A stretch of DNA of 32,840 nt from Alphaproteobacteria bacterium (GTDB lineage: Bacteria; Pseudomonadota; Alphaproteobacteria; Micavibrionales; Micavibrionaceae): contig JAOUOR010000017.1 of the NCBI GenBank assembly GCA_029880245.1, forward strand, positions 1 through 32,840, in the 5' to 3' direction. The translations under genes and the position numbers were made by a program. The notes under the pieces are model-generated. The model did no database searches. It was not told the origin of the DNA and worked only from the letters and a program-made list of their open reading frames with translations. Positions 3,194-26,440 of this stretch are shown piece after piece (positions within the stretch are counted from its first letter, which is position 1; every line of letters starts with the position of its first letter).

Positions 3194-4834
3194 TTAAGAA
3201 AATGCGACACCGAAAGCTGTAATACCGAGTGTGTTTTGGATGGCATTAAGGAGCGGCCCGAGATTAACAGCAAGCGCGCCGCCGATAATATGAGTCATAG
3301 CTACCATTATCGAAGATTGCTGCTGACCTTCTGCAACGCCCCTTATGATAAATAGGCCCCGCACAAAGCTGATAATTCCAATAATAAACATAAATCTGAG
3401 AACGGCATTAATGACGTGATATGTGGCTCCGGTTTCTGCGGCAGTCATGCCCCCAGCATATTTTAGGGTTGCAGTTGTGTTCGTAAAGGGACTTCCGAAT
3501 AAAGTTTCCGAGGCGGCCCGTAAAATGACGTTGGCTGACATGAGCAGACCTGCAATCACAAACGTTGTCACGGTGCCAATGCCGCCAGGGCCGCGAGGGC
3601 CTTCCTGTGCCGATTTAATTAATCTTGAAATGCCGATCATAACCAGAATAAGACCTGCGACAAAGCAAAAGTAATTTAATACAACATGTAGCGGCCCTTG
3701 AATATCGGTCATTAAACAGCCCATGGCTTCTTCCAGAGAATTATTGGGGCCGCAGGACAAAGCCGTAGTCGTTGTAAATCCGGTATTTGTACCAGCTAGT
3801 GTAAAGCCGGCCAGGGTGACAGGTGTCAATGAGATTTGTAATGTTGCCCCAACAAAAGGCATTGCGAAAAACGCGCCTGCTGCCAATAAGCGCATAACAC
3901 CTTCTGATAGTTTTGTTTGCATCGGGCTGAGGACATGATCGCGTATTTTTAAAATACCCCATAGGCCCATGGCCAAACCTATCAAATAAGAAAGACCCGA
4001 TAGAAACATAGGTAAAGAAATTGTATTCGCCATGCTTCTACATATGACAGTACCAAGCGTGGCTGATAATGAAGTGGCACAATCTGGAAGCCAACCGCCG
4101 GTTTCTGATGAGTTTAACATAGACCAGATATTAAATGTGCTGACCAAAAATCCAGCTATGCCCAGATTGCCACCGGTGATTGTAGTATACATGGCCCGAA
4201 ATACGGTGGGGAGGGCAAAAAGTGCGCCGGCAGTTAGTAACCGTATGACAGGCTCTTTCAGTTTGACCTGATCCGGTTCGTCGACATGTTCCTTGATGCG
4301 CAGGACACCGCTTATGGCCATGATAATACCCAGCAAATAACTAAGCGCAGAAACTAAAGCCGGCACATCATCGGTAAATATATCTATATTGATCAAAATA
4401 GAATCAAAATTTGTCCCTAATGAAGCAAGAGCACTTAATATGCCTAAAGCCCCAAAAACGTTGTTCATCATCGCCGAACTGTTGTCTGTCGGGTCGAAAG
4501 TCATTGCTCCGCCGCCACTAATTGTGTTTGTTGCGGCTTCGAATACAAGAGGCAGCGAAAAGAGGAAGCCCCCGACCAAGAGCCGTATAATTCCCTTTCT
4601 TAAGGGCGGTCTGGCTGTTTCCGGCATTGTAGCATGTTCCAGAATTTTAAAAATCCCCAGAACGCCAAATAATATACCCATTAAATAGGCAAGAGCGGAG
4701 GCTAGAGCCGGTAAATCCCTAGAAGAGTCAACCATATTCTCCGCTAAATCTTCTACGCCGAGCTGGGCGTAGGCAGGAGATCCCAGAAGGAGTGCCAATA
4801 AAAAAACTGAAAAGACAGAAATATAATGCCTCAT
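3194..4834 (-). CDS. DotE/IcmC-position membrane protein made of tandem IcmD-like repeats
   Basis: This 546-residue protein has a signal peptide (cleavage near AYA at residue 23) and many membrane segments. Three clear copies of the two-helix unit seen in DotP/IcmD lie at about residues 39-101, 155-216 and 272-332. Each has the pattern LPALxSALxYLxGI, an I(L)KI/RI-[KEL]-[ED]H-[VA] loop with a downstream proline, and then a GxxRLLxxGxxFxxP helix. Two degenerate copies follow at about 377-441 and 472-535. Legionella IcmC/DotE, which occupies this operon position, is only about 190 residues. I infer an inner-membrane component, either a fusion of several IcmC/IcmD-type modules or a repeat-expanded DotE. 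Connecting segments are glycine- and threonine-rich, and some carry cysteine pairs (251/265 and 361/373). The start has a good AGGAAG site. Confidence 0.7.
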   Translation of the reverse strand: MRHYISVFSVFLLALLLGSPAYAQLGVEDLAENMVDSSRDLPALASALAYLMGILFGVLGIFKILEHATMPETARPPLRKGIIRLLVGGFLFSLPLVFEAATNTISGGGAMTFDPTDNSSAMMNNVFGALGILSALASLGTNFDSILINIDIFTDDVPALVSALSYLLGIIMAISGVLRIKEHVDEPDQVKLKEPVIRLLTAGALFALPTVFRAMYTTITGGNLGIAGFLVSTFNIWSMLNSSETGGWLPDCATSLSATLGTVICRSMANTISLPMFLSGLSYLIGLAMGLWGILKIRDHVLSPMQTKLSEGVMRLLAAGAFFAMPFVGATLQISLTPVTLAGFTLAGTNTGFTTTTALSCGPNNSLEEAMGCLMTDIQGPLHVVLNYFCFVAGLILVMIGISRLIKSAQEGPRGPGGIGTVTTFVIAGLLMSANVILRAASETLFGSPFTNTTATLKYAGGMTAAETGATYHVINAVLRFMFIIGIISFVRGLFIIRGVAEGQQQSSIMVAMTHIIGGALAVNLGPLLNAIQNTLGITAFGVAFS

Positions 4835-6224: not shown

Positions 6225-7478
6225 TCAGATATCACTCTCTTCGTCAATGACCGGCGAAGTAAATAATACGCCCATAGGTGTTCCAGCACGTATTATGACG
6301 GTTGGCTCAACATCGGCGATATCATCTATAATTTCAGTAATTTCATCGGCGGCTTCCTCGATACCGGTTGCAACTTCCTGATCATTATCCGGCTCGCCTG
6401 TGCTTTCAACAACATTATCGCCTGAAACAATCACAGATGTTCGACCTGTCTCTGCTATGGCTCCGGCCATACCGCCTATAAAGGCAGATGCTGCGGGCAA
6501 AACAATTCGCTTGAAATAATGATTATTAACATCTGTAGCCATTCCAGCCAAAGTCGTATCCGGATCCAGCATTATGGCGCTAATTGGAACATCTTTTCCA
6601 TCAACCACAGCTGTTGTAAAGTTTACAACCAGATATTTATCTTCCTGAACTGTGAAGCTACCCATCATGCGGCTACCTTTTAGCGGCCCTGTTAAAAGAA
6701 GAGCCATAACGGGACCTTCTATGTCAGAGTTTGCTTCGAGCAACATTTGCGCATATTCAATTGTACCTGTCGGGATAATAATGGTTTCTTCAGTCTCTTC
6801 CTGAAACGCGCCTCCACCGTTACCATTAGGCGTAGGTCCTGCGCCGGGGCCGGTTCGTCCGGTTGTGTCATCGTCTTCGTAGTCAACCATACCGATATAA
6901 GTAAATGTGGCTTTTTCTGCGCGCCGTGTCAAAACGGATTCCATTTGCTTGCTCATAGACTCCGAGAGATTCTTGATCGCTTCGTTTTGTTGTTCTGAGT
7001 CAAGAACTGTAACGGCTTCCACGGATTGTCTTTCTCTCATTTCCCGTTCAACGCGCTCTTCTTGAATACGTCGCCATTTATGGAGAGGGTCTTCCTCTTC
7101 TTTCTTTTCCTCCGGCAATGTCAGACGCTCTTCCGGTGATTCTATAGGAACGGGAATAGCACTTTCTCCTGTTTGGATAGCTCTTTCCAGTTCATCTTCG
7201 TTTTTTTGTTCTACGGCCTCTACATAAGCAGGTGTTGCTTCATTTGTCCCTGGTGGCGCAGTAACTTTAGAGCCTTTAGGAATACTAGACGGGTTTTCTA
7301 CTTCTGCCGCGCCTCCAAAAAACCATGCTATTAGTATGATAACGCCCACGGCCAGAACAACAATCCCGACTTTAGCAGCAGGATTTGTTCTGATTACATC
7401 ACCCAGACTCGACTTTTGGACAAATTCATCGAATTCTCCGTCCGAGCCGATAATTTCTTCATCTAGATCATCATTCAT
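6225..7478 (-). CDS. dotG: DotG/IcmE (VirB10-like) core-complex protein
   Basis: This 417-residue protein has an acidic cytoplasmic N-terminus and one membrane helix at about 36-55. A charged, Glu/Arg-rich coil follows at about 95-190, including KWRRIQEERVEREMRERQ. The C-terminal half (about 235-415) is VirB10-like: a PTGTIEYAQMLLEANSDIEGP segment, then GPLKGSRMMGSF, then DPDTTLAGMATDVNNHY, and finally RAGTPMGVLFTSPV. In the family this domain forms part of the outer-membrane ring while the helix anchors the protein in the inner membrane. Legionella DotG (about 1050 residues) carries a large pentapeptide-repeat region that is absent here; this one is closer in size to IncI TraO. The start overlaps the end of dotH by 8 nt, which suggests translational coupling. 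The order dotI-dotH-dotG is canonical. Confidence 0.9.
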   Translation of the reverse strand: MNDDLDEEIIGSDGEFDEFVQKSSLGDVIRTNPAAKVGIVVLAVGVIILIAWFFGGAAEVENPSSIPKGSKVTAPPGTNEATPAYVEAVEQKNEDELERAIQTGESAIPVPIESPEERLTLPEEKKEEEDPLHKWRRIQEERVEREMRERQSVEAVTVLDSEQQNEAIKNLSESMSKQMESVLTRRAEKATFTYIGMVDYEDDDTTGRTGPGAGPTPNGNGGGAFQEETEETIIIPTGTIEYAQMLLEANSDIEGPVMALLLTGPLKGSRMMGSFTVQEDKYLVVNFTTAVVDGKDVPISAIMLDPDTTLAGMATDVNNHYFKRIVLPAASAFIGGMAGAIAETGRTSVIVSGDNVVESTGEPDNDQEVATGIEEAADEITEIIDDIADVEPTVIIRAGTPMGVLFTSPVIDEESDI

Positions 7479-8517
7479 CTAACATATCCTCATCAGTACT
7501 ACTCGCAGAAAGATAAACACGCATCATACGGCCTTTATCCGACAAAAGAACAACCGGTGTTTCTTCAAGGGCATACACTTTTGTACCATCGGCAGATGTA
7601 ACAGAGCTATCCCATGCAGGGGAAAGTAGTGCCAAAGGCGTTCTTACATAAGTCATACCATTGTAAATATAAGCTGTAGTGCGCCCGTCTGTTCCATTGA
7701 CATCAAGAATTTCAGCATCTTGTGGTATGACACCGCTCAACGCCAAGGACATGTCTGAATCACCTGCGGTCAGTTTGATTCCCGAATCAATAAGAGGTGT
7801 TTGTGCATAGGGCCCGTTTTGGGGAATAATGGCATCAAATCTATAATGAACTGAATCGCGTGCTGTTTCCAAAGTAAATACGACGGGTGTATCGAGGCCG
7901 ACGAGACGCATTGAAACATTACCATGCGCAAATTCTTTTTCCGGTGAAATTCTTACCATATTAGTGAAGTCTCTTGGGCTCTCCTCTTCAATCAGGAAAT
8001 CTCCAACCCAACTCATATCTTCAATTGGCCATGGCTTTCCTGTGTTATCCAGTATGCTTAGTGACGTCACATAACCAAAAGACAAACGTATCACTGGTGC
8101 AGGACTGCCCGGATCAAGGGATAAGTTTTCTACAAGAGATATGGGTCTTGGATAAGGATATACAGGGGTATTGGTGGATTCAATCGTCCGGTCATAGCGC
8201 TCCAATAACTCTCTTATTTCAGATGGCTTTAGGGGGAGCATTTTGTCCATGGCGCTTTTGAAAGCTTCTCGTCTAAAGTCCTGCTCTAGCTCTTCAGACG
8301 TTTTTTCAAATTGCAATCCACCAGTATCAAAATCAAAAACATCCTTAGTATCGCTATCAGGCTCTAGGGGGACTTCGTCGAGTTCGGACGGCAAGCCATC
8401 TTCTTGTGCAAAAACAGGCGCCGGTAAGGCCATAATGCCTACACAAACAACAAATAGCCCAATATATTTTAAAAGTGAGGACGAATGTCCGTGTGGAAAA
8501 CTATGTTTGTATTTCAT
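7471..8517 (-). CDS. dotH: DotH/IcmK outer-membrane core protein
   Basis: This 348-residue protein has a signal peptide ending near VFA (residue 37) and no lipobox. The middle and C-terminal parts match the DotH/TraN family: an acidic spacer, a helix ending MLPLKPSEIRELLERYD, then PYPRPISLVENLSLDPGSPAP, then a beta-rich region with SFGYVTSLSILDNTGKPWPIED. DotH joins DotC and DotD in the outer-membrane ring of the type IVB core, and its C-terminal part contacts DotG. Length is close to Legionella IcmK (about 360). It is encoded 118 nt downstream of dotI and overlaps dotG by 8 nt, the family's standard arrangement. Confidence 0.9.
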   Translation of the reverse strand: MKYKHSFPHGHSSSLLKYIGLFVVCVGIMALPAPVFAQEDGLPSELDEVPLEPDSDTKDVFDFDTGGLQFEKTSEELEQDFRREAFKSAMDKMLPLKPSEIRELLERYDRTIESTNTPVYPYPRPISLVENLSLDPGSPAPVIRLSFGYVTSLSILDNTGKPWPIEDMSWVGDFLIEEESPRDFTNMVRISPEKEFAHGNVSMRLVGLDTPVVFTLETARDSVHYRFDAIIPQNGPYAQTPLIDSGIKLTAGDSDMSLALSGVIPQDAEILDVNGTDGRTTAYIYNGMTYVRTPLALLSPAWDSSVTSADGTKVYALEETPVVLLSDKGRMMRVYLSASSTDEDMLDE

Positions 8518-8635: not shown

Positions 8636-9355
8636 TTAACCTGATCTTGCGATCCATTGTTCAATGCCTACCCCATTTGGACTTTCAAGGCGTGGAACTC
8701 TAACGACGACAACGGTTATCATAAGACCAGTATTCTCTGAGTTCGCACCGGATTGATAGGTTAGAGCCAGAGGAATTTCCACTACCCATTGCCAGCGACC
8801 AGCGACCACTCCCTCTGATCTTAAAATAGGAGCGCCCTTTGGTGCAGCGCTCAGAACTTGTTGATGCGCCTCCATCATCTCAATGATACGTGACCTGTTC
8901 AGGGCTTGAGTAAAGCTCTCCCATCCCCGTTTTGTAAAGTTTCGAGAAGATTCTTGCAGGCGTCTGCGGTAATCGTTGAACCCAAAGGTCATAACTTCGG
9001 TCGTTGCTTGCGCTACCCATGACATCAGGGCGGGTGTACTCAAATTCGGTTGACCCAAGGGAACCATTGGCATTAGTCGCCCGTCTTCAGTTGTTGCAAA
9101 ATAGAAATGCTGTGGCTGGTGGATATGGACGACGTAGAACATAACAGCAATCAGCCCGAAAATGACCAATGTTTGCAGCAGAGCCATTTTCAGCAGGCTT
9201 CTGTATCCATCACGGTAAAATTCATTTCTTATAACAACGGTACCAAGACCCGACGTATCTTGTTCATCTGTCTGGGGTGCCCCGCCTGTCTTGGTCTGAG
9301 GAGGTGTTGCAATTGGTTTTGTGCTTTGTCCTATTGTGCTCTTTTTTTTCAGCAT
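8636..9355 (-). CDS. dotI: DotI/IcmL inner-membrane protein
   Basis: This 239-residue protein has a hydrophilic Pro/Thr-rich cytoplasmic head (about 1-50) and one membrane helix at about 57-80 (LLKMALLQTLVIFGLIAVMF). The periplasmic domain contains the family-typical FATTEDGRLMPMVPLGQPN, MSWVAQATTEVMTFGFNDYR and a terminal VVVVRVPRLESPNGVGIEQW. DotI (IncI TraM) forms an inner-membrane subcomplex with DotJ in Legionella; the domain is VirB8-like. It heads the minus-strand dotI-H-G operon and is divergent from the five-paralog cluster, with about 207 nt between them. The ATG at 9355 is used because a nearby upstream ATG runs into a stop after three codons. Confidence 0.9.
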   Translation of the reverse strand: MLKKKSTIGQSTKPIATPPQTKTGGAPQTDEQDTSGLGTVVIRNEFYRDGYRSLLKMALLQTLVIFGLIAVMFYVVHIHQPQHFYFATTEDGRLMPMVPLGQPNLSTPALMSWVAQATTEVMTFGFNDYRRRLQESSRNFTKRGWESFTQALNRSRIIEMMEAHQQVLSAAPKGAPILRSEGVVAGRWQWVVEIPLALTYQSGANSENTGLMITVVVVRVPRLESPNGVGIEQWIARSG

Positions 9356-9562
9356 TCCATGATTTCCGGTACGTTGTAAAATATCATTATGAACTCAGAT
9401 ATTTAAAGACTATATCTATATTACAATAAATTTGTAACAAAAAATTAAATTTAACAATAGAGATATCTAATCTTTTTTCTAATTAGAATTTTATGCTCAT
9501 TAAAGTTTGATCTTTTCTCGCAAATATTGCATCATTAAGGCTGTTGATCAAATGGATAGTTG
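9356..9562. promoter_or_regulatory. Divergent promoter region between dotI and the paralog cluster
   Basis: This 207-nt AT-rich spacer must hold start signals for both directions. For the plus strand, TTGATC (9507-9512) and CATCAT (9530-9535) are separated by 17 nt, a modest sigma-70-type match. For the minus strand no pair is convincing. Short inverted motifs (AGATAT...ATATCT near 9400-9420 and a palindromic AGATATCT near 9460) could be operator sites. None of this is strong. Confidence 0.35.
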
Positions 9563-11059
9563 ATGATTGGATATATTAGGTCTCGCATTTCTGTGTGTTT
9601 TAAAGTCCGGCTGCGTTTCATTGCGTGCGCAATAGTTTTTTCATGTTTATCTTTCTCTGCACATATAGATACTGCACAGGCTTCTTGTGGGTGTACTGCC
9701 GGTACGTGTTCTACAGCAGATTGTGCGGGTGCAACAGTTCAGCTTCAACAGTTGCATCAGCAAATTAGACAAAACACAAATAATAATTTTGATAATGATT
9801 TGTCGGCTTTTCATAGCTGGATGATCAATGATTTTCTGGGGCCTCACATTGTTCCTGCTGTTGCCGCTATGTTAAGCCAACTAAATGCTGTGGGTATGCA
9901 GTATGTTGAGGCTGTGGGTATGTTTATGGATGCCAGATTGCAGCTTGAGACGCAAAGACTTAATCAAAAACTTAAATATGAAGCCCATAGGGATTATACG
10001 CCGAGCGATGATTTTTGTTGGTTTGGTACTAATGTCCGAAGTCTTGTAGGCAGTGAAACCAGAGCTGATTATAATGCTTTGGGGCTTTCACGGTTGTCAC
10101 TTGACAGATATATTGGTGCTTTCGGAGTATCGGGGGATTCTGATGCAGATGCGGATTTGAGTGGGCGCTGGGAGCTTTTTGTCAAAACAAATTGTGATCG
10201 ATATGACAATAATAATTTAGGCAAGAATGTAGCGGGTGTTAATATTCGTACCGGCCTTGAATATGCTTGTGACCGTAACCGGAATTATAATGCCAGTGAT
10301 AATGATATTGGCGCGGTAGAAGCAAAACATATTAATCGTGATATTGATTTTACCAGATTGGTTGATGAACCACGGACAATTGATGTTGACTTTACGGACG
10401 CGACTTTGGATTCGACAGACACTATTTCTATCTTTACGGCTCAAAACGAAGATGAAATAGATGTCATTCAAATGCAGAAAAATTTATATGGCCATAGATT
10501 GCCCAGAAGAGTTGTCAGCAGGCAGGCTGCTGCTAAGGGGACTACTCAAAAAGCTTATATTGGGATCAGGAATGTGCATGCGAAGCGGAATGTGGCGGAG
10601 GCAAGCTTTAATGCAATTATAGGGCTAAAATCTTCGGGATCAGGTATGAAACACAATCTTGTATCTGGTGGCGGGCCTGAGGATGAGGTTTTTCAGACTC
10701 AAAGATATATGGCGGCCATTATAAGGGAAATTCTCCCTGATGATACCGGGTCTTTGGCAAGTCTGGGGTCTAAAATCTATGAGTTGATCGGGTTTAATCC
10801 CAGTTATTATTCCCAGCTTGAAGTTCTGGCCAAGCGCATTTATCAAAATCCGGATTTTTATGCATATTTATATGATAAACCGGCCAATGTTGCTCGTAAG
10901 AAAGTGGCAATGAGGGCTGTTGAATTAATGGTAGATCGGGAAATTTATGAAAGTCAGCTCCGCCGTGAGATGCTTGTGTCAGTTTTGTTGTCAAGTAAGC
11001 TCATGCCTGAATATGTGAAAGTAAACGAGTTTTTAACCGAAGCAACCGGGACGAAATAG
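9563..11059 (+). CDS. Exported cysteine-containing protein, paralog 1 of 5 (family not recognised)
   Basis: This protein of about 498 residues has a signal peptide ending near AQA; the mature N-terminus is cysteine-rich (SCGCTAGTCSTADC). Blocks shared with the next four genes are: an MFMDARLQLETQ helix; AHRDYTPSDDFCWFGT; NCDRYD; ACDR; NRDIDFTRLVDEPRT; NLYGH; a NVAEASFNAIIGLKS segment; and a C-terminal NPSYYSQLEVLAKRIYQNPDF followed by YDKPANVARK. Three cysteines in the body align in all five copies. I do not recognise the family. It is exported, probably periplasmic or surface-located, and first in a run of five, divergent from dotI. ATG at 9563 is preferred over the TTG at 9560, since GGA lies 6 nt upstream. 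A role linked to the type IVB apparatus is only inferred from location. Confidence 0.85.
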   Translation: MIGYIRSRISVCFKVRLRFIACAIVFSCLSFSAHIDTAQASCGCTAGTCSTADCAGATVQLQQLHQQIRQNTNNNFDNDLSAFHSWMINDFLGPHIVPAVAAMLSQLNAVGMQYVEAVGMFMDARLQLETQRLNQKLKYEAHRDYTPSDDFCWFGTNVRSLVGSETRADYNALGLSRLSLDRYIGAFGVSGDSDADADLSGRWELFVKTNCDRYDNNNLGKNVAGVNIRTGLEYACDRNRNYNASDNDIGAVEAKHINRDIDFTRLVDEPRTIDVDFTDATLDSTDTISIFTAQNEDEIDVIQMQKNLYGHRLPRRVVSRQAAAKGTTQKAYIGIRNVHAKRNVAEASFNAIIGLKSSGSGMKHNLVSGGGPEDEVFQTQRYMAAIIREILPDDTGSLASLGSKIYELIGFNPSYYSQLEVLAKRIYQNPDFYAYLYDKPANVARKKVAMRAVELMVDREIYESQLRREMLVSVLLSSKLMPEYVKVNEFLTEATGTK

Positions 11060-11072
11060 CAGGAATATAGAA

Positions 11073-12530
11073 ATGTTTTGGAACAAAGAAAGAATTAAAA
11101 CTGAAAAAAGGAAGGGCTTTAAAAAGTTTCTTCTTGTTTTCGTTTTGATTTTTGCTCTATCCGGATCAGTTATAACTATCCCGCAGAAACAGGCAGAAGC
11201 AACGTTTTGTATTCCTTGTTGGGCGTGTGGATTTACTGATTGTTTCTTTTTTGCTTTGGGCGTTGAAGCTCTGCAGGAATTTGTTTTTACACCGTTGATT
11301 GAGCAGTTAATAGAATATCATATGAATTATGAGGAAAGGTGGATCGTTAGCGTTTTCTTCGAGGAATTATGGGTTAAGGCTCTGGCCGAGATGACGAATT
11401 ATCTCAGTGCGTTTGCTATGGATCAGGTCTATATGGTTGGAACATTTTTTGATGCCAAGGCACAACTCGAAACGCGCCGCTTGTTTTATAAACTGAAGGC
11501 AGAGGCGCATAAGGATTATTATCCGAGTGATGATTTTTGCTGGTTTGGAACCAATGTCAGAAGTCTTGCGGCTTCTGAACAACGCGCGCGACTAAATCAT
11601 GTGGCTTTATCTCAAAGGTCTTTGCGGCGCAGGCTTGGTTTTGCTGATCTGGCTTCGGCGGAATTAAATATCAAGGAAAAAGAAGCTAGATGGAATCAGT
11701 TTGTGGATACGTATTGTGATCCTAAGGATAATGGTTGGAATACAGTAGGAGGCGGTTTGGACCTGGCTTGTGACCGCGATGGGCCGGGCGGATCTGCTTT
11801 GGCCGGAGCAACGCAACCTTATCGTATGAACCGTGATATAGATTTTACGAGGCTCGTAGATGAGCCCAGAACGCTGGATGTTAACTTTCAGGTTTTGAGT
11901 GCTGCTGCACCTCCAGCACCGCCTTTGCCAAAAGAGGATGATGAAGATGTTCTGGCGATGGCAAATAACTTATATGGTCATAAATCTCTTACAAGGCAAA
12001 TGTCCCGTCAGGCTTTGGCAAAAGATACCGGGAAAAAATTATATTTATCGCTACGTAGCGTTGCGGCAAGACGGGGCGTAGCAGAAAATAGCTTTGATGC
12101 GATTATAGGAATGAAGTCCAAGGGCACGAACGGGCTGGCTCCGGGAGTTGCGGATACGGGACGTTTTATGGCATCGGTCATTCGAGAATTGATGGTTCCC
12201 GTTACAAATCCGCCTGACACAGTGGCAGCTGTTGCTCAGTTCGAACAGGAAGTCCTGAATGTGCTCGGCGAAAATCCGAGTTATTATGCCCAACTAGAAT
12301 TTTTGGCGAAAAAGATATACCAGAATCCCGAATTTTTTGCGAATTTATACGATACACCAGCAAATGTTGATCGAAAGAGCGTTGCGATGAAGGCCATCGA
12401 GTTAATGCTGGATCGTGCTTTGTATGAGAGCGAGATAAGGCAGGAAATGCTGCTTTCTGTGTTGCTTTCGAATGAACTTCGTAATGAGTTTAATGCGATT
12501 AATACAGATATTGCCGGTAGTGGCGGTTAG
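11073..12530 (+). CDS. Exported cysteine-containing protein, paralog 2 of 5
   Basis: This 485-residue protein has a basic N-terminus, a hydrophobic signal segment (about 17-36) and probable cleavage after AEA. The mature end carries FCIPCWACGFTDC. It is most like paralog 1: both share DYYPSDDFCWFGTNVRSL-type and DIDFTRLVDEPRT blocks, so these two probably come from the latest duplication. Other family blocks are FFDAKAQLETRR, YCDPKD, ACDRDG, NLYGHKSLTRQMSRQAL, GVAENSFDAIIGMKS and NPSYYAQLEFLAKKIYQNPEF. The start lies 13 nt after paralog 1, with AGGAATATAGAA upstream of the ATG, so the genes are co-transcribed and probably coupled. An alanine- and proline-rich linker sits before the EDDEDVLAMANNLYG block. 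Function unknown. Confidence 0.85.
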   Translation: MFWNKERIKTEKRKGFKKFLLVFVLIFALSGSVITIPQKQAEATFCIPCWACGFTDCFFFALGVEALQEFVFTPLIEQLIEYHMNYEERWIVSVFFEELWVKALAEMTNYLSAFAMDQVYMVGTFFDAKAQLETRRLFYKLKAEAHKDYYPSDDFCWFGTNVRSLAASEQRARLNHVALSQRSLRRRLGFADLASAELNIKEKEARWNQFVDTYCDPKDNGWNTVGGGLDLACDRDGPGGSALAGATQPYRMNRDIDFTRLVDEPRTLDVNFQVLSAAAPPAPPLPKEDDEDVLAMANNLYGHKSLTRQMSRQALAKDTGKKLYLSLRSVAARRGVAENSFDAIIGMKSKGTNGLAPGVADTGRFMASVIRELMVPVTNPPDTVAAVAQFEQEVLNVLGENPSYYAQLEFLAKKIYQNPEFFANLYDTPANVDRKSVAMKAIELMLDRALYESEIRQEMLLSVLLSNELRNEFNAINTDIAGSGG

Positions 12531-12552
12531 ATTGTGATTAAATGGTAAATTT

Positions 12553-13980
12553 ATGCGCGTAAAGTACAACAGAAAGAAAAAAAGTTTTAAGACCGGCCTT
12601 TGGATAGGCTTGATCTTGGCACTTTTCTTTATGCCTCAAACTGTGAAGGCTTGCTGTTCTTGTGTGGCCACTATAGCCGCTTGGCAAAGTATGGTATGGA
12701 AAGAAGCCGAAAATGATTTTGATAAAAAAATAAATCAAGAATTTCTTGACCTTGAGCGGTTTCTTGTGCGGGATTTATGGGCAGCGCGTATTTTGCCTGT
12801 TATGATGAGAAGTGCCGAACAATTGACGGTGGTTGCTATTCAGCAAGCCATGATTATTGGAACGTTTTTTGATGCATCTATTCAAATGGAGACACAATTA
12901 TTACTTCAGGAAATAAGGGCTAAAGCGCATAAAGACTACCATCCTAGTGTAGGGATGTGTGAATTCGGATCCTTATCCAAAAGTATAGCTGTTTCCGAGC
13001 GCAGAGGTGAGCTGACCTCAGTTGTGTTAAGTCAGCGTTCCCAAGACAGGCAGTTGGGACATATCAACACAACGGGTATGTATGGGGGGGATCTCGATAA
13101 GGTTTATGACTCGGAAGGTCAGGTTATGAAGTCGAACAGGTTAATCCAGTTCGCAACCTTATTTTGCAATGAATATGACCGTAAAAACGGGCTGGCTAAT
13201 ATTTGTCAGGCTGTTGCCTGGTCGGGGCTTAGTATACAGGACAAAATGCGCATTAACAAAGATATCGATTATTATAGCCTCATGGAGGAGCCGTGGACGT
13301 TGAAAATAAACTACACGAATAACCAGATTACAGATACTTTGCCTTCGCCGCCCATTAGTAATGAAGATGAGGAACATGTGATGGCCATGGCCAGTAATTT
13401 GTTTGGATATGATTTGTTTGTGCGTATCCCGCCGCGTCATATTGTCAATAAACCGGAAAAATTGACCGAGTTGCATAGAGCCTATATGGATATGCGTTCT
13501 ATTATCGCCAAAAGAAGTGTCGCTGAGAATAGCTTTAATGCAATTGCAGCCATGAAAAGTGAGGGAAATCTTTTGATTAATCCATCAGCTCCGCCGGATA
13601 CATTGCCTCATAGTGCTAGAATATATATGGAACACGTTCTAACAGAACTGGGTGTGGATGATGTGAATTCTGATGGTAGCACACAAGATGAGATTCTTGC
13701 CATGATGGGGGAAAATCCAAGTTATTATGCCCAGATGGAAGTTTTGACAAAAAAACTATACCAAAACCCGGATTTCTATACCAATCTTTACGATAAACCT
13801 GTGAATGTCGAAAGAAAAACTACGGCCATGCAGGCTATAAAACTTATGCAGAAATTTGATATGCTCAAAAGTGTTTTACGTGACGAAGCAACGCTTTCGG
13901 TCTTGCTGGAATTGGCTGTTATGGATGTTCAGGACGAAGTAGAAAAGCAGATCGAAAACATAGATGTGAGTGCGGAATAA
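12553..13980 (+). CDS. Exported cysteine-containing protein, paralog 3 of 5
   Basis: This 475-residue protein has a lysine-rich N-terminus, a signal segment (about 16-32) and a cut near VKA, giving a mature end with CCSC. Family blocks are IIGTFFDASIQMETQ, AHKDYHPSVGMCEFGS, FCNEYD, NICQA, NKDIDYYSLMEEPWT, EDEEHVMAMASNLFGY, VAENSFNAIAAMKSEG and NPSYYAQMEVLTKKLYQNPDF. Before the last block lies VDDVNSDGSTQDE, a degenerate counterpart of the Ca-loop-like motif in paralog 5. It forms a sub-pair with paralog 4 (HPxVGxCEFGS, QKFDxLKS, and a similar C-terminus ending DVSA-acidic). The ribosome site is weak. The gap to paralog 2 is 22 nt. Function unknown. Confidence 0.85.
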   Translation: MRVKYNRKKKSFKTGLWIGLILALFFMPQTVKACCSCVATIAAWQSMVWKEAENDFDKKINQEFLDLERFLVRDLWAARILPVMMRSAEQLTVVAIQQAMIIGTFFDASIQMETQLLLQEIRAKAHKDYHPSVGMCEFGSLSKSIAVSERRGELTSVVLSQRSQDRQLGHINTTGMYGGDLDKVYDSEGQVMKSNRLIQFATLFCNEYDRKNGLANICQAVAWSGLSIQDKMRINKDIDYYSLMEEPWTLKINYTNNQITDTLPSPPISNEDEEHVMAMASNLFGYDLFVRIPPRHIVNKPEKLTELHRAYMDMRSIIAKRSVAENSFNAIAAMKSEGNLLINPSAPPDTLPHSARIYMEHVLTELGVDDVNSDGSTQDEILAMMGENPSYYAQMEVLTKKLYQNPDFYTNLYDKPVNVERKTTAMQAIKLMQKFDMLKSVLRDEATLSVLLELAVMDVQDEVEKQIENIDVSAE

Positions 13981-13992
13981 GAGAAAAAACAA

Positions 13993-15324
13993 ATGATGGT
14001 GTATGTAAGAAAGATACTGAAAAAAATGCTATTGACCTCGTTGGTTGCGGCAAGTCTTTCCCTGTCGCCATTGCCTTCGCAAAGAGCATGGGCGAGTTGT
14101 TGTGGTTGTTGTAGTTGTATTGATTTGGTCACAACAGATGCTGGTTACTGGGCTCAAGATGTTATAGCTATAAATATGCATATTTTTACCACTTTACTTT
14201 TGAACCGTCAGTTATGGTGGGATTATGCGTTTTGGCAACAGGAAATGCTACCGGTCTTCATGAATATCGGTGAGCAAATGTCTGCTGTGGGAACGCAGCA
14301 GGTTATGATTATCGGGACCTTTATGGATGCCTCTGAAATGATGGAAACACAAAGAATGCTTCAGGAAATGCACGCTAAGGCTCATAAGGATTATCACCCT
14401 GCGGTGGGACTTTGTGAATTCGGTTCACGTATAAAGAGTCTTGCCGCTACGGAAAGAAAAACTGAGATTAATGCTTTGGCCTTGAGTGAACGTTCGATTG
14501 ACAGATTGCTTGGTAATACGGCAGTAGCAGCGGCAGATGGCCCGCGTGCTGATGTTCGCTATCGTTTTCTTCAGTTTCAAACGCAGTTTTGTGATGTTTA
14601 CGACGAGGGGTATGGTCTGGATGCCTTGTGTCCTCAACATAAAAATATGGGCGCCTTGACACTTCCTCAAAGAGAGCATCTGAATGCTGATATTGATTAT
14701 GCCCGGACACTTCAAAATCCTCTGACGGTGAATTTGGATATGACTGATGGTACAAATATTAATAATCAGGAAAGAGAGCTCTTTGCCCTTGCCAGCAATT
14801 TATACGGCTATGACAGTTTTCACAGATTTAGCCCGGAGGCTTTGCAAAATGATCCTAATTTAGGGTTATCGCCAGCACAAAATACTTATCTTGATCTAAG
14901 GTCTGTTGTTGCCAAGTCTAATGTTGCCGAGAATAGTTTTAATGCTCTTGTTGCTATGAAAAGCGAGGGCACAGATGGATCTTTTAATTTTCTTGAGGCC
15001 TATCTGGAAAAGCTGGGTATTACAGATAGTACCGAGCTAGAGCGTTATCTGGGTGAGAATCCGAGTTATTATGCCCAGATGGAAATTCTGACTAAAAAAG
15101 CCTATCAAAGTGCAGAGTTTTACACGAATTTATATGACAAACCTGCGAATGTGGAGCGTAAGGGCGTAGCAATGCAGGCAATTGGTCTGATACAGAAATT
15201 TGATCTTTTGAAAAGTTATTTGCGCACCGAGTCTTCTTTGTCTGTGTTGTTGGAACTGAGTGTTGCAGAACTGCAAAATGAAATAGAGGATGCTATTAAC
15301 GCCTTTGATGTGAGTGCGGATTAG
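13993..15324 (+). CDS. Exported cysteine-containing protein, paralog 4 of 5
   Basis: At 443 residues this is the shortest of the five. The signal peptide ends near AWA, and the mature N-terminus is SCCGCCSC, the densest cysteine cluster of the set. Conserved blocks are MIIGTFMDASEMMETQRM, AHKDYHPAVGLCEFGS, FCDVYD, LCPQ, NADIDYARTLQNP, NQERELFALASNLYGY, SNVAENSFNALVAMKSEG and NPSYYAQMEILTKKAYQSAEF. The variable loop before the NPSYY block is shorter than in paralogs 3 and 5. The start is 12 nt after paralog 3, with AAGAGA upstream; ATG-ATG at the start makes the first or second Met possible. The C-terminus is acidic. Function unknown. Confidence 0.85.
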   Translation: MMVYVRKILKKMLLTSLVAASLSLSPLPSQRAWASCCGCCSCIDLVTTDAGYWAQDVIAINMHIFTTLLLNRQLWWDYAFWQQEMLPVFMNIGEQMSAVGTQQVMIIGTFMDASEMMETQRMLQEMHAKAHKDYHPAVGLCEFGSRIKSLAATERKTEINALALSERSIDRLLGNTAVAAADGPRADVRYRFLQFQTQFCDVYDEGYGLDALCPQHKNMGALTLPQREHLNADIDYARTLQNPLTVNLDMTDGTNINNQERELFALASNLYGYDSFHRFSPEALQNDPNLGLSPAQNTYLDLRSVVAKSNVAENSFNALVAMKSEGTDGSFNFLEAYLEKLGITDSTELERYLGENPSYYAQMEILTKKAYQSAEFYTNLYDKPANVERKGVAMQAIGLIQKFDLLKSYLRTESSLSVLLELSVAELQNEIEDAINAFDVSAD

Positions 15325-15333
15325 TCAAAGAGT

Positions 15334-17313
15334 ATGGTGAAGAAGAATATGAAAACACAAGGACAAGAAAGAAAATGGATATTACCATCCGTTGTGGTGG
15401 GCTTTGTGGCTGTTTTACTATTGGGAGCGGTTTTATCTTTTTCTTTTAATGGGCAGATGAAAATTAGGTTAAGCGGATTTTCTCCGGATACGGAAATTGC
15501 CTATAAAATTTTAAATAGCGATAATGAGGTTCTTGATTATAGACATGATAAAATTGATTCTTCGGGTGATCTGGTTTTGTCACCGCCGACCCGGGTTACG
15601 GATCAAGACGAAGCACTAATATATGATCTGGATATTAAACAGCCTGCTGATGAGTTTTCTGAAAATGCCAAATCTTTAAACATGATTTTAAAGCTTAAAC
15701 CGAGAAATGAGGGGCTATATTTTTCAGGGCAAGGTTTGTCAGAATATTCTGATATTACAATTAAAAAGGGTGATAGTTCCAAGAGAGCCAGAGCGGATTG
15801 GGCAGGTAAATTTTACGAGGATTTTAAAGGGTTTGATCTCTCAAAAGATAAAGGATCTCCTATAGAGTTGGCGTTTCAGGGTTTTAATGTAGCGGATGAT
15901 GCTTCATTAGGAGAAACACCAAAAGTCGAGGTATATTATGATAGCATCACTGGCTTTTTGAGCTATTTCTACCCTTTTGGAACAAGTAGCGGTTCAACAC
16001 AGGCGCAAAGAGATCAGTGGGCTGCAGCACTTTCTGATATGACGCGTGAATTTTCTGCTGTCATGGTTTTACAAACTGCGATAATAGGCTCATTCTTTGA
16101 TGCGGAAACGCAAATGCTTGTTCAAAGGAAACAGCAAGAATTACGGGCAAGGGCCCATAAGGATTATCATCCAAGTGAGCAAATGTGCCGTATAGGGACA
16201 TTCATGCGCAGTGTTGCTCATACTGAAAGAAAGAGTAATCTCACAAAAGCAATTTTGAACAGAGCCTTGCTTGATGAATATCTGGGTGTACAAAACAGCA
16301 GTGCAGAAAGCGGTCCCCAAACTTCGGTGGTTGCGCGTATCGAGCAATTCAGAAGAAAATATTGTGATCCCCGTGATAATAGCAGAAAACTTGATGGCTT
16401 TTGTATCATAAATACCAGCCTGACAGCTGCGCAACAGCTCCGAGCACGGGCGCGCCACAATAAGGACATTGACTATACACGCACATTGGACAGCAAGTTA
16501 ACGCTGGATATTGATTATTTTGATGTGGCAAATACAACCGAAGATGAAGAGGATGTTTTAGCGCTGGCTAAGAATCTGTATTCATCTGAAGTTTTTGTAA
16601 CACCGACAGTTCTTAGCATGGAAAAAGATTTGCGGGTGCAATATAGATCAAGAAGCTATGCAGCTAAGCAAAGCGTTGCACATAGCACTTTCATAAATCT
16701 TGTCGGTATGAAGGCCTTGGCACCTGCAGGACAGCCTGGTACAAATCCGGCATCTTTTCCTGATTTACCCATACAATTCCGTTATACTGAACCATATACA
16801 AATCCGCCGGCAGGAACACCGAATTTAGGGAATTCGGGGACATTTACGCCGAGTTTGACGACGCCTGCTAATGCCAGACCTTCGCCGCCATATTATAGGC
16901 CTTATCATAGTCCGGCTTTGACCGAGGATTCCGGGTGGGCCTATATGAAGGCGTTGCTGCGGGAGTTTGGTATTGATGATACGGATGGGGATGGTTCGAC
17001 AGATGATGAAATTGACCAGATTCTTGGCGTACGGCCAAGTTATTATGCTCAAATGGAAGTGTTAACTAAAAAAATCTACCAGCATCCCAATTTTTTCACC
17101 AATCTTTATGATAAACCGGCCAATGTAAAGCGTATTGGGGCTTCGATTGATGCGATTGCATTGATGCATTTAAGGGATCGTTACGAATCAATGCTTCGCC
17201 GCGAGATGATTGATGCCGTTCTTGTCGAACAAGGGCTGCAAAAACATGTGGATGCTGTTAATGCGCGGATTTCTTCTTCGACGGGTATCCCTCCAGCTTT
17301 TAGAGAAGATTAA
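15334..17313 (+). CDS. Membrane-anchored paralog 5 of 5 with large N-terminal extension
   Basis: This 659-residue protein differs from its sisters. Residues 15-37 form an uncleaved-looking membrane anchor. Residues about 40-225 are a region with no counterpart in paralogs 1-4 (strand-rich by eye, including IRLSGFSPDTEIAYKILNSD), and the N-terminal cysteine cluster is missing. The family core starts at about 226: IIGSFFDAETQMLVQRK, AHKDYHPSEQMCRIGT, YCDPRD, GFCII, NKDIDYTRTLDSK, EDEEDVLALAKNLYS and RPSYYAQMEVLTKKIYQHPNF. A proline-rich insert (about 470-525) precedes an acidic DDTDGDGSTDDE loop at 548-559, which resembles a calcium-binding loop. ATG at 15334 is used; the ATG at 15349 is a fair alternative. 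It might tether the soluble paralogs at the inner membrane (inference). Function unknown. Confidence 0.82.
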   Translation: MVKKNMKTQGQERKWILPSVVVGFVAVLLLGAVLSFSFNGQMKIRLSGFSPDTEIAYKILNSDNEVLDYRHDKIDSSGDLVLSPPTRVTDQDEALIYDLDIKQPADEFSENAKSLNMILKLKPRNEGLYFSGQGLSEYSDITIKKGDSSKRARADWAGKFYEDFKGFDLSKDKGSPIELAFQGFNVADDASLGETPKVEVYYDSITGFLSYFYPFGTSSGSTQAQRDQWAAALSDMTREFSAVMVLQTAIIGSFFDAETQMLVQRKQQELRARAHKDYHPSEQMCRIGTFMRSVAHTERKSNLTKAILNRALLDEYLGVQNSSAESGPQTSVVARIEQFRRKYCDPRDNSRKLDGFCIINTSLTAAQQLRARARHNKDIDYTRTLDSKLTLDIDYFDVANTTEDEEDVLALAKNLYSSEVFVTPTVLSMEKDLRVQYRSRSYAAKQSVAHSTFINLVGMKALAPAGQPGTNPASFPDLPIQFRYTEPYTNPPAGTPNLGNSGTFTPSLTTPANARPSPPYYRPYHSPALTEDSGWAYMKALLREFGIDDTDGDGSTDDEIDQILGVRPSYYAQMEVLTKKIYQHPNFFTNLYDKPANVKRIGASIDAIALMHLRDRYESMLRREMIDAVLVEQGLQKHVDAVNARISSSTGIPPAFRED

Positions 17314-19779: not shown

Positions 19780-19815
19780 TATATTAAAGTGAATGAGTGA
19801 AAAGGATATAAAATC

Positions 19816-22931: not shown

Positions 22932-23231
22932 TTAACCGTAGTCAATAAATCGGTGTTTTTGTACCCCTAAAAGACCTGAGCGCTTGCGGCCAACCATCCA
23001 TGAGCGGAAAGCCCTTAGGGCGGAAGGAAAACGGAGGCCTTTGTTTTCAAAGAAACGAAATACGTAGAAAATTATGAAGCTAATGATAATTGTCGACCAA
23101 CGCAAATAAAACAACCATACGGGAACGAGCAAGGCACATCTCCCATCAAAGCTGAGGAAGCGAACGGTTCGCATGGTATCACGCCAATGCCAGTTCATCT
23201 TTGCTTCGAGGTTTTCGAGTTCTTTTACCAT
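22932..23231 (-). CDS. icmT: IcmT/DotS-family membrane protein
   Basis: This 99-residue protein begins with a short charged leader, then the family-typical WHWRDTMRTVRFLSFDGR. A hydrophobic segment pair (about 33-60, ALLVPVWLFYLRWSTIIISF) follows, and then a basic ALRAFRSWMVGRKR tail. IcmT (Legionella, 86 residues; TraK in IncI plasmids) is a small inner-membrane Dot/Icm component. The dotD-dotC-dotB-icmT order equals traH-I-J-K of R64-type plasmids. The first ATG has AAGGA about 7 nt upstream and is preferred; the Met at residue 12 would bring the length closer to Legionella IcmT. The identification rests on a short motif plus exact synteny. Confidence 0.85.
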   Translation of the reverse strand: MVKELENLEAKMNWHWRDTMRTVRFLSFDGRCALLVPVWLFYLRWSTIIISFIIFYVFRFFENKGLRFPSALRAFRSWMVGRKRSGLLGVQKHRFIDYG

Positions 23232-23303: not shown

Positions 23304-24461
23304 TTATGAACCGGTGCTGGAGGATAAAACCAGATAAGAATGGCGATCAATCTGACCAGCCTCATAGGCGATCTCGGCCGAAGTCTGCATGCTTTGGCCA
23401 TATTGAGGGAGCATTCTTGTGATTTCATTGGCCCATTTTGTAAAATGCATATCCAGTAATCTTTCGCGAACATCATCAGGAAATTTCATCCACTCCCGTA
23501 CACCACAACGTCCACCATTAACGCGAGGAACAAGGGCTTGTGTAACAATCAGACGAAGGGTTTCTACAAGTGCGGTTGCGCGTTCCTCCCGCTCATCCAT
23601 TTCATAAGCAGAAATCATCCGTGAAACTGTGTTGGCAACACCCAGAGTGTGAGTTGTTGTATAGACGGCGTGACCTGTTTGTGAGGCTTCGATGGCGGCA
23701 TTGATGGTTTCCCGGTCACGGGCTTCGCCAACGAGGATAATTTCTGGTTTGCGCCGAAGGGCGTTACGCACACCCTTGGCAAAATCCGGCAGGTGCCTTG
23801 GTATTTCTGTCTGGGAAACCAAAGAGCGTGGGCTTTTAATCGAGTCATAAACATATTCAATAGGTGATTCGTAGGTTAGCATTTTGCCGCAGCCTCTCGG
23901 GCGTTCCAGTAGCATACGATTACCGGCGGCCAGCAAGGTACTCTTTCCTGATCCGGTTGGGCCTGTGACCACTACCAAGCCTTGTCGAGGCGCCCAGTTA
24001 TCGATGATTTCCTGCTCGATACTCAAATCTTTCATAGTGGGTGGATCGCTTGGAAGTGTTCGCATTGTAATCTGAGCGCCATCGCGGCCTTTTGATAGAA
24101 TTGCTGTGATGTTTACACGAAAGCGAATACGCGTATAGCGGTCGGGGCGGATTTCATAGGATACGTCAAGATCTTTGGCTGAAGCCAAACGGGCGCGTGC
24201 CTCGGGTCCATAGAGTTTTTCAAGGAAAACGCCTATATCGGCAGCATCAATTTCCCGAAATGTTCCAGGATAAAGATGCCCGCTTATATCGTTATAAACA
24301 GGACGATCACTTTGAATTGTAATATCGGACGAACCTTGTTTTACGCACCAGAGGAGGAAGTCATCCACATCATCTTGCGTAAACCTATTTGGCTCGTCGG
24401 GCCAGGTCTTCGCATGATCATCTTCAGCTTTGACAAGGCTTACCGGCTTGCGGGTTTCCAT
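23304..24461 (-). CDS. dotB: DotB, T4BSS traffic ATPase
   Basis: This 385-residue protein is close to Legionella DotB (377). It is a PilT/VirB11-type hexameric ATPase. Walker A is GPTGSGKS at 167-174. An Asp box lies near TYESPIEYVYD (about 196-206). Walker B is in the EIILVGEARD segment (about 240-249). The His box is TGHAVYTTTHT (262-272). The N-terminal domain (about 25-140) includes the SSDITIQSDRPVY typical of the family. DotB binds the inner-membrane complex through DotO and powers secretion. The start overlaps dotC by 22 nt, implying coupled translation. The canonical box has GEMRD; here alanine replaces methionine, a conservative change. Confidence 0.95.
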   Translation of the reverse strand: METRKPVSLVKAEDDHAKTWPDEPNRFTQDDVDDFLLWCVKQGSSDITIQSDRPVYNDISGHLYPGTFREIDAADIGVFLEKLYGPEARARLASAKDLDVSYEIRPDRYTRIRFRVNITAILSKGRDGAQITMRTLPSDPPTMKDLSIEQEIIDNWAPRQGLVVVTGPTGSGKSTLLAAGNRMLLERPRGCGKMLTYESPIEYVYDSIKSPRSLVSQTEIPRHLPDFAKGVRNALRRKPEIILVGEARDRETINAAIEASQTGHAVYTTTHTLGVANTVSRMISAYEMDEREERATALVETLRLIVTQALVPRVNGGRCGVREWMKFPDDVRERLLDMHFTKWANEITRMLPQYGQSMQTSAEIAYEAGQIDRHSYLVLSSSTGS

Positions 24462-25291
24462 TGTTTAGTTTCCGTGATAAGCGTAGGTACTCCGGTTATT
24501 TGCACAGCCCGGTCACCTATGCGCATTTGATCACCACGGCCTGTTACACCGCGGTCGAGTTGAAGAGCGTATGGCGGTGAAATCATACCTTGTGCTAAAA
24601 GCAGACGGTAACGTACCATACCCTCGAAATCTGTTGTTAATCTGGCAAGATCGCGCTCGAAAATTTCGTTAGCCTGAGAATAGCCATGATCCCAACCAAT
24701 CTTAATATGTTTATCCCATTCAAATTGTTCTTCCTCGTTTTGGGGCAACAGAATATCAGGCGGCGGAATGACTTCGCCCCATTCGCGTTCCAGATATTGG
24801 CGCCACATTCTAGGGGCAGAAACAATCTTGGCGTTACGCACAATATCATAAATTCTGTCTGAAACAGCAGCCGTCTGACCGCCTATATCAATGATCATGG
24901 CGTTTTGTGATTCAGAAATAATCGGTGGCTCGATCATAAAGCCTGAGGGCGCTGCGACTAGAAGCTGTGCAAAATTGAAAACACTATCAAGATAGCGCTC
25001 ACGGGTTTTAAGCTCCTTACGGATTTCATAGGTGCGTTTGGCTAATCCTCCACGCGCTCCAAAAGATGTAGCGGCTTCACGGACTGCATCAAGGCGTATA
25101 TCCAGAGGCAATGTGTTTTTAATGAATTCGCCCTGACCTTTGTAGGTCATAAGGGTCTCCATATCTACCGGCTCCATATCAATGTCGACTATTGGCTCTT
25201 CGGATTCCACGGGCAGGCCAGCATATCCTTTTTGATAAGGCGCTGGGAAAATAAGTATTGTCAGGATAAAAAACGCAAAAAATTTCCGCAT
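24440..25291 (-). CDS. dotC: DotC outer-membrane core protein, without lipobox
   Basis: This 283-residue protein carries DotC hallmarks: VREAATSFGARGGLAKR, FNFAQLLVAAPSGFMIEPP, PRMWRQYLEREWGEVIPPP, and NEEEQFEWDKHIKIGWDHGYSQANEIFERDLARLTTDFEGMVRYR (given here only as a landmark region, about 184-228). With DotD and DotH it forms the outer-membrane ring. Legionella DotC (about 303 residues) is a lipoprotein. Here the N-terminus has a hydrophobic signal (about 4-18, then GYAG) but no cysteine, so it is likely cut by signal peptidase I and not lipidated. Only 3 nt separate it from dotD, and it overlaps dotB. The family assignment is firm; the processing claim is an inference from sequence. Confidence 0.92.
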   Translation of the reverse strand: MRKFFAFFILTILIFPAPYQKGYAGLPVESEEPIVDIDMEPVDMETLMTYKGQGEFIKNTLPLDIRLDAVREAATSFGARGGLAKRTYEIRKELKTRERYLDSVFNFAQLLVAAPSGFMIEPPIISESQNAMIIDIGGQTAAVSDRIYDIVRNAKIVSAPRMWRQYLEREWGEVIPPPDILLPQNEEEQFEWDKHIKIGWDHGYSQANEIFERDLARLTTDFEGMVRYRLLLAQGMISPPYALQLDRGVTGRGDQMRIGDRAVQITGVPTLITETKQWKPASR

Positions 25292-25294
25292 GGT

Positions 25295-25828
25295 TTAGAT
25301 ATCCCCTTCTGGACCGGCAAGCCCTGAGTGCGGTGCATAATAGATTTCAACCATTTTGTTGCGGGCATCAACCTTAACGTCGCCACGCATGCCAAGTTGT
25401 AAACCAAGATCACGGAATGCATCAATTACGGGGGAATTCTCAAGATCAAGATATACAACAGCTTCGACAGCAGGCTTACTACCCATGACCACAAAACCAT
25501 ATCCGGCGCGATCAGCCAAAGTTTTTGCAATAGGCTCAATTGGACCAACCCAGTTTACCGTTACAGCTCGGCGTAGTTCAATGGGCGCATTATCTATCGG
25601 TGCCATAGGCACATTCGGTGTTTTTGCGCGCTCAACAGAGGCGAGTGTTTCCAGAGCAACTGAAGCGCGATTTGCTGATTCGGCAAGCATGGCCGAGACT
25701 TTGTCCGGGGATGCCACAAGCTGTGGGCTTCCTCCGCTGAAATTCGGATTGGACGATGTTCCTGAATAAGTACAGCCAGAAACAAACAAAATGCTAAGGA
25801 AAGAAGTAGTAAGAAGTTTACGTGACAT
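25295..25828 (-). CDS. dotD: DotD outer-membrane lipoprotein
   Basis: This 177-residue protein has a lipoprotein signal: hydrophobic residues, then LFVSGC with Cys19 as lipidation site. A Ser/Gly/Asn-rich spacer follows. The secretin-N1-like domain (about 85-170) is typical of DotD: TVNWVGPIEPIAKTLADRAGYGF, GSKPAVEAVVYLDLEN, then DAFRDLGLQLGMRGDVKV. DotD binds DotC and anchors the ring in the outer membrane; the IncI counterpart is TraH. I chose the ATG giving MSRKLL rather than a TTG eight codons upstream, because it places the signal peptide at the very start and has AGGG upstream. It heads the dotD-dotC-dotB-icmT run. Confidence 0.92.
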   Translation of the reverse strand: MSRKLLTTSFLSILFVSGCTYSGTSSNPNFSGGSPQLVASPDKVSAMLAESANRASVALETLASVERAKTPNVPMAPIDNAPIELRRAVTVNWVGPIEPIAKTLADRAGYGFVVMGSKPAVEAVVYLDLENSPVIDAFRDLGLQLGMRGDVKVDARNKMVEIYYAPHSGLAGPEGDI

Positions 25829-25875
25829 AGTTATTTTTACCCTACAAGCCAATAAGACAATTAAGCCTTTTATAA

Positions 25876-26023: not shown

Positions 26024-26440
26024 CTAGCGACCTGTTTTTATTAGACCATTTTCATACATTATGTCAAGAACACGTTGTTTATATTTCATTCCGTAACGGG
26101 GCGTTCTCGAATGATAATGCTGCAAGGCCTGCGATAGGCTTTGTGTCTCATTGATGTGGTTACGCAAAATCCAGGCTGCAACTTTTGTATTTATACAGGC
26201 ATCATCGCGCACCATTTTATGGGCTTTGTCTTCGCTTACTTTCCATCGTTTGGCAAGTTCGGGGAGCCAGACTGTATTTATTTGCATAGGACCAAGATCA
26301 TGTGAGCCGTTTTCATTGGCAACTTCCTGCCCTATTTTGCCACCTTCTGCCTTATATATGCCAACCATTAAGGCGGGCGGCACGTTATAAGTCTGGGAAG
26401 CCATCATCAAACACGCAGCAATAATTTTGGTTGCGGACAT
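26024..26440 (-). CDS. Lytic transglycosylase, SLT domain only
   Basis: This 138-residue protein consists almost entirely of a soluble lytic transglycosylase fold. ALMVGIYKAEGG contains the catalytic glutamate (Glu32), followed by ENGSHDLGPMQINTVWL (the GxMQIN motif at 50-55) and a later ALQHYHSRTPRYGMKY segment. Such enzymes cleave peptidoglycan with 1,6-anhydro product formation and open a path for secretion systems and pili (VirB1-type role). It lies upstream of dotD on the same strand, about 195 nt away. A stop codon immediately precedes the ATG, so it cannot be extended, and no convincing signal peptide precedes the domain. Export would need a non-standard route or an uncleaved N-terminal helix. 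Confidence 0.85.
   Translation of the reverse strand: MSATKIIAACLMMASQTYNVPPALMVGIYKAEGGKIGQEVANENGSHDLGPMQINTVWLPELAKRWKVSEDKAHKMVRDDACINTKVAAWILRNHINETQSLSQALQHYHSRTPRYGMKYKQRVLDIMYENGLIKTGR

Follow-up and report, generated by a model that had tools for sequence, protein, structure and literature searches.

Up to five IcmX/TraW/VirB5-like genes in the type IVB locus of Micavibrionales and a possible hetero-oligomeric channel tip

VirB5 and IcmX represent the part of the type IV machine that meets the target cell. In Legionella, IcmX forms a homo-pentamer on top of a DotA (VirB6) pentamer and makes up the distal part of the channel (PMC12857230, PMC12624023), and a review treats TraW, IcmX and VirB5 as counterparts, all of them pentamers, and TraY, DotA and VirB6 as counterparts in the same way (PMC12624023). 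TraW is encoded next to TraX-TraY on IncI plasmids (NF033888). Multiplication of such components has been reported for Bartonella, in which TrwJ (VirB5) of a type IVA system was tandemly multiplied along with the VirB6 component; there, fast diversification and an unstable copy number are thought to serve host-specific adhesion (PMC2883598). In other Alphaproteobacteria the stalk component VirB6 of a vir-type system was multiplied to four or five genes, with five paralogs (RvhB6a-e) in Rickettsia (PMC2653234), which lacks virB5, and four in Anaplasma (PMC7648143). For Micavibrio, the authors of a genome paper of 2011 saw no sign of a type IV system (PMC3189940), and a later survey noted type IVB systems in seven marine Micavibrionales (PMC9418006). 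Type IVB systems in this order, multiplied VirB5 and multiplied VirB6 are therefore already known; searches of the open-access literature found no account of multiplied IcmX, of a limit of five genes or of multiplied DotA in Micavibrionales. Here we describe five tandem genes of an IcmX-like family in a stretch of 32,840 nt (contig JAOUOR010000017.1, assembly GCA_029880245.1), called the window below and used for all numbering, and compare this locus with the systems above.

The array consists of the following genes, each delimited as an open reading frame (ORF) and by alignment, with a profile and, for copies 4 and 5, a structural model as further support:

9560..11059, plus strand: paralog 1, class A, IcmX-like, predicted exported, 499 aa, orthogroup 1
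11073..12530, plus strand: paralog 2, class A, IcmX-like, predicted exported, 485 aa, orthogroup 2
12553..13980, plus strand: paralog 3, class B, IcmX-like, predicted exported, 475 aa, orthogroup 3
13993..15324, plus strand: paralog 4, class B, IcmX-like, predicted exported, 443 aa, AlphaFold model matching IcmX of 9ngy
15334..17313, plus strand: paralog 5, class C, membrane-anchored, 659 aa, orthogroup C

Paralog 1 starts with TTG at 9560, with an alternative ATG at 9563. The gaps between the genes are 13, 22, 12 and 9 nt. The whole core of about 440 residues can be aligned across all five paralogs at 29-43% identity to copy 1, and a profile built from them recovers each copy in the genome at E < 1e-180, well outside what chance could give, which confirms the five tandem paralogs with gaps of 9-22 nt proposed in a first-pass annotation of the window. 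The conserved blocks listed there all fall among the 60 invariant columns of the alignment, which include three cysteines. Copies 1 to 4 carry signal peptides ending in AQA, AEA, VKA and AWA, followed by cysteines, as had been read from the sequence before, and are predicted to be exported to the periplasm. Copy 5 instead has an N-terminal transmembrane helix (residues 16-35) that looks non-cleaved, and a beta region of about 150 residues; its model shows two immunoglobulin-like (Ig-like) beta domains (about 41-181) followed by an IcmX-like helical core. Searches of Pfam and NCBIfam with the five proteins gave no credible family, a sequence-profile search of the PDB with the family gave no credible match, and tblastn of a plasmid collection gave no match to the family.

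The hypothesis that the family is IcmX came from the gene neighbourhood and from published work on the DotA-IcmX pentamer (PMC12857230, PMC12624023, PMC12981334), and it preceded the structure searches. The AlphaFold model of copy 4 (alignment of 129 sequences, predicted local distance difference test score 88.7) was compared with 350,542 PDB chains by Foldseek and found one credible match, 9ngy_AP1, with a probability of 1.00 and E 1.9e-3, the next match having a probability of 0.05. The helical part of the copy 5 model found the same chain at a probability of 0.99; the matches ranked above it were mostly Ig-like folds and came from the N-terminal beta region. Entry 9ngy is the Legionella DotA-IcmX protochannel, in which chain FP1, with 1048 residues, is DotA (a molecule with ten chains in two entries), and the 417-residue chain AP1 would be IcmX, judging from the title of the entry and the chain lengths. 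Structure prediction of the monomers, a check proposed along with the first-pass annotation, thus picked out the IcmX chain for both copies 4 and 5. Like the proteins of the array, Legionella IcmX is exported, helical and part of a type IVB system, its solved chain having 417 residues, and it is the only credible match for the two modelled cores; unlike them, it is the product of one gene and forms a homo-pentamer, whereas up to five diverged genes are found here, at an identity of about 10-11%.

A second line of evidence leads to TraW. The genome G427, which lies outside the order, holds a single-copy relative that matches the family profile at E 1.3e-15. It also matches NF033888, the TraW model, at E 3.3e-5, a score that stays under the curated cut-off. 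Its genes run from DotI-DotH-DotG upstream to an ATPase resembling VirB4/TrbE (a weak match, E 9e-4), the family member and DotA, and the order of ATPase, family member and DotA matches TraU-TraW-TraY of IncI plasmids. With a widened family profile, hhalign gave TraW a probability of 81% over about 200 aligned columns, compared with at most 0.4% for the decoys (17 other Tra/Trb/Pil proteins, 18 proteins of the window and five shuffles of TraW). In a direct HMMER search the five proteins of the window had no match to the TraW model, so that this homology was reached only via intermediates. TraW of IncI plasmids therefore shares profile-level homology and a gene order with the family, but is present in single copy and belongs to a conjugative plasmid.

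Because of the fold matches to 9ngy, the TraW matches of G427 and of the widened profile, and the gene order beside DotA in G427, the array family is, as judged from fold, sequence and synteny, a divergent IcmX/TraW/VirB5-type component. The earlier statement that it cannot be linked to a named family was overturned by the same fold and TraW matches. The possibility that the proteins are exported effectors or enzymes of the system and not parts of the machine, to which signal peptides and cysteine-rich ends might point, is largely refuted and hardly credible any more, given the IcmX fold, the TraW homology, the gene order beside DotA and the presence together with DotH throughout the order.

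In the window, the array is embedded between two halves of a type IVB locus, with DotI-DotH-DotG on the left (divergent) and DotB-DotC-DotD on the right. A genome-wide DNA scan found 51 loci, nearly all labelled Micavibrio or Alphaproteobacteria. Among 142 genomes of the order Micavibrionales, the family was found in 126, as far as the first profile could detect it, and DotH in 132. Wherever the contig reaches far enough, the cluster usually adjoins DotI, DotH and DotG; the genes adjoin DotI in families f1, f3, f5 and f7, and in families f2 and f6 the cluster follows transglycosylase-DotD-DotC-DotB-IcmT-TcpQ. Linkage to one or the other half of the locus is therefore seen across the order, and this linkage, together with the position of the array between the two halves in the window, strongly supports the functional link to the type IVB system suggested at first. 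Among 385 genomes spread over the class, only G242 (four tandem copies) and G427 (one copy) match outside the order, and DotH was found in 16, including all six with a family match; G230, which also belongs to the class, carries one copy adjacent to DotI. In G242 (L136:8233-11152), four tandem DotI-like genes were seen in addition to the four tandem IcmX-like genes. Three well-assembled genomes (G064, G103 and G106) have three DotA genes each, and neither DotH nor the IcmX-like family was found in them; the two were either jointly lost or are missing from the bins.

The size of the family ranges from one gene in outgroups to two, three, four or five, and five was reached in deeply separate lineages. 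Single copies occur in two genomes of f5, each with one DotA: G121, between DotI and FlgK, and G118, as an ORF of 419 aa beside DotI (hhalign 96.5%). Two copies with one DotA each were found in G140 (f7) and G008 (f3). Within f1, two genomes have two copies (G046, G047), five have three (G021, G026, G065, G100, G101), seven have four (G059, G069, G073, G092, G095, G104, G105), and the genome of the window and about 20 other resolved genomes have five. In f2/f6 the number is nearly always five, made up of four tandem genes and one remote gene. More than five copies were considered for twelve genomes with six or seven raw matches, and each of these resolves to five after merging of ORF pieces and contig-end splits; no genome with six copies was found among those resolved.

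Birth-death models on a DotG-DotH-DotI tree of 49 loci gave a log-likelihood of -41.5 when capped at five, -58.0 when uncapped and -57.9 when capped at six. Since the cap had been set at the observed maximum, 200 data sets were simulated under the uncapped fit and each was capped at its own maximum. The observed gain of the capped model was 16.6 log units versus 4.7 for the largest simulated gain, so that none of the 200 simulations reached 16.6, and none had at least 29 of 49 tips at its own maximum. Support for a ceiling at five is strong but not final, as the model assumes uniform rates.

The positions within the array are also maintained. One-to-one position orthogroups extend over as many as 15 loci in the clade of the window and over nine genomes of f2/f6, and orthogroup C (copy 5) has one member in each of 41 loci. 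Mean identities of orthogroups 1-5 are 0.53-0.56 over the same 78 genome pairs, compared with 0.54 for DotG, 0.64 for DotH and 0.77 for DotI, so that the IcmX-like orthogroups diverge about as fast as DotG and more quickly than DotH or DotI. All copies from f2/f6 group in a single clade (support 0.998) that contains five orthogroups; the f1 copies fall outside it, except for one poorly placed sequence of G057. A common ancient class of copy 5 and the remote f2/f6 gene was also considered and is not supported, as all f2/f6 copies fall into this one clade. Within f1, separate origins were found for copies 1/2 and 3/4 of the window's clade, for the four copies at the front of the array in the L035/L038/L043/L047 clade, and for those of L041/L045.

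These data bear on the proposal that each paralog forms its own homo-pentamer and that several tip types serve different target cells, as has been proposed for Bartonella VirB5 (TrwJ). There, tandem multiplication has affected trwL and trwJ-trwI-trwH (VirB2 and VirB5-6-7), genes that have been tied to host-specific adhesion (PMC2610397, PMC2883598), and the exposed position of VirB5/IcmX at the end of the machine, the multiplication of DotA (VirB6) here as well and the Ig-like domains of copy 5 would fit with such variant tips. However, trwJ evolves far faster than the rest of its machine, with a variable copy number and orthology that is hard to assign (PMC2883598), whereas neither faster divergence than in the other components (0.53-0.56 versus 0.54 for DotG, though faster than DotH and DotI) nor unstable copy number without clear orthologs was found for the five one-to-one orthogroups, and a ceiling at five in separate lineages would be unexpected. 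We consider variant tips unlikely, though they deserve to be taken seriously.

Neutral tandem duplication of a tolerant subunit, for dosage or redundancy and without a special assembly, would be in line with the ease with which tandem arrays duplicate and with copy numbers of one to five. The maintenance of position orthologs across genera at about 55% mean identity, the ceiling and the neighbouring DotH, which is single throughout the order and never duplicated while the IcmX-like genes and DotA both multiplied, make it very improbable.

With TraY of an IncI plasmid as query, three long ORFs were found in the window's genome, all over the DotA_TraY cut-off, two as a tandem pair at a contig end and the third where a different contig begins:

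L063:3-2918: DotA/TraY paralog
L064:77-2953: DotA/TraY paralog
L064:3044-6103: DotA/TraY paralog

DotA is present as three tandem copies, sometimes four, in f1, as one copy in f5, f7 and f3 and as one to four in f2/f6, and its tree shows an old copy 1 and copies 2/3 that arose from repeated local duplication. A strict one-to-one relation of family number and DotA number was rejected, as a single DotA accompanies five family genes in most f6 genomes, and f1 genomes have two to five with three or four. G123 (L118) has four DotA paralogs, yet only one IcmX-like gene, remote and long, was found in it.

An old copy of DotA beside younger ones would also fit stacked or sequential parts, in which two or three rings of the A, B and C classes are placed along a longer channel, for example with copy 5 as a membrane-anchored base ring and copies 1 to 4 as outer segments. 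Within f1, class C split off early as a clade of its own, and its members usually have a distinct N-terminal anchor region; in many genomes the copies number exactly three, with one for each class. Stacked rings, which we regard as rather improbable, do not account for a total that ends at five in lineages of differing class structure.

Owing to the ceiling of five, the fixed orthologous positions and the equal rates, shared places in one ring are the simplest account. The five genes may thus encode a hetero-oligomeric channel tip of the type IVB system, with at most five genes, one per ring position, a proposal that we consider evenly balanced between right and wrong. The fuller version, in which a pentameric tip is built from up to five position-specific products that repeatedly evolved from one and fivefold symmetry sets the ceiling of gene number, falls just on the doubtful side of that balance. 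Of the two options in the first-pass annotation, subunits of one assembly fit better with one-to-one orthologs, equal rates and the ceiling, and diversifying exported factors fit less well.

According to this proposal, an ancestral IcmX gene would have been duplicated in Micavibrionales and the copies would have become non-interchangeable. The paralogs would co-assemble as one mixed ring, the window's five genes giving a hetero-pentameric tip, and some subunits would be repeated in the ring in genomes with fewer genes. Copies 1 to 4 would be secreted to the periplasm and copy 5 would be kept in the inner membrane, contributing its Ig-like domains. DotA, here encoded by three tandem paralogs, would carry the docked tip, and opening of the channel would drive the tip towards the contacted cell. 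Micavibrio is a bacterial predator, and bacterial prey would be the obvious candidate for a target cell in this order. We infer the pentameric state, the mixed composition, the position-specific roles and the delivery into a target cell from the data above.

Several points weigh against the assignment or the ring proposal. Whole-chain template modelling scores to IcmX are low (0.30 for copy 4 and 0.21 for copy 5) at an identity of 10-11%; this might be expected for elongated multi-domain helical proteins so far apart, and a fold match alone is no proof. The number of DotA genes (one to four, usually three in f1) does not track the number of family genes. Many genomes have two, three or four copies, so that the system can work with fewer than all five. 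The merging of genes split at contig ends is itself an inference, and the ceiling was picked after the data had been seen, for which the bootstrap corrects only within a simple homogeneous birth-death model. Within a lineage the paralogs are similar to one another, a pattern that repeated duplication or gene conversion could explain, and gene conversion among neighbours could mimic part of the pattern of independent origins.

If the proposal is true, distinct gene products in place of a homo-pentamer would let genetics probe each position of the ring separately, and the family would be a rare case in which gene number apparently reads out ring symmetry. The distribution also makes a near-universal type IVB system central to the order to which the bacterial predator Micavibrio belongs.

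Type IVB parts detected were DotB, DotC, DotD, DotG, DotH, DotI and IcmT, plus DotA elsewhere in the genome. The genes of the window outside the array are as follows:

8636..9355, minus strand: DotI/IcmL (TraM, VirB8-like), PF11393 E 1.2e-63
7471..8517, minus strand: DotH/IcmK (TraN), PF12293 E 3.6e-71
6225..7478, minus strand: DotG/IcmE (TraO, VirB10-like), PF03743 E 2.3e-11 and NF033900 E 6.4e-49
3194..4834, minus strand: TraQ/IcmC-like membrane protein with internally repeated segments, NF033883 E 1.5e-14, below its cut-off
22932..23231, minus strand: IcmT/TraK, NF038220 70.2 bits, over the cut-off
23304..24461, minus strand: DotB-type ATPase (TraJ), PF00437 E 5.4e-34
24440..25291, minus strand: DotC (TraI of IncI), PF16932 E 8.3e-77
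25295..25852, minus strand: DotD, PF16816 E 1.1e-29
26024..26440, minus strand: lytic transglycosylase, PF01464 E 1.4e-7

The transglycosylase is linked to DotB, DotC and DotD in families f2/f6 as well. The TraQ-like protein (3194-4834) apparently has three IcmD/TraR-like membrane segments in front of a TraQ-like end, and its length varies widely among genomes; a small relative at 2687-3079 looks like one further IcmD/TraR-like unit. Beside IcmT, DotB, DotC and DotD, a TcpQ-domain protein is encoded at 21125-22774, and it adjoins the family cluster in f2/f6.

FlgK and FlgL follow the array (17383-21009), as they do in f3, f5 and the majority of f1 loci, and they lie near the array in f6; flagellar hook-associated genes and the type IVB locus are in a long-lived linkage. 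A long-chain AMP-binding (fatty acid CoA ligase) gene at 26566-28262 lies in two overlapping frames, probably due to a frameshift or a sequencing error. The protein encoded at 1962-2672 has paired CxxC motifs, looks HNH-like on inspection and has no Pfam match; it is conserved in type IVB loci of many genomes of the order and shows about 70% identity within the window's clade.

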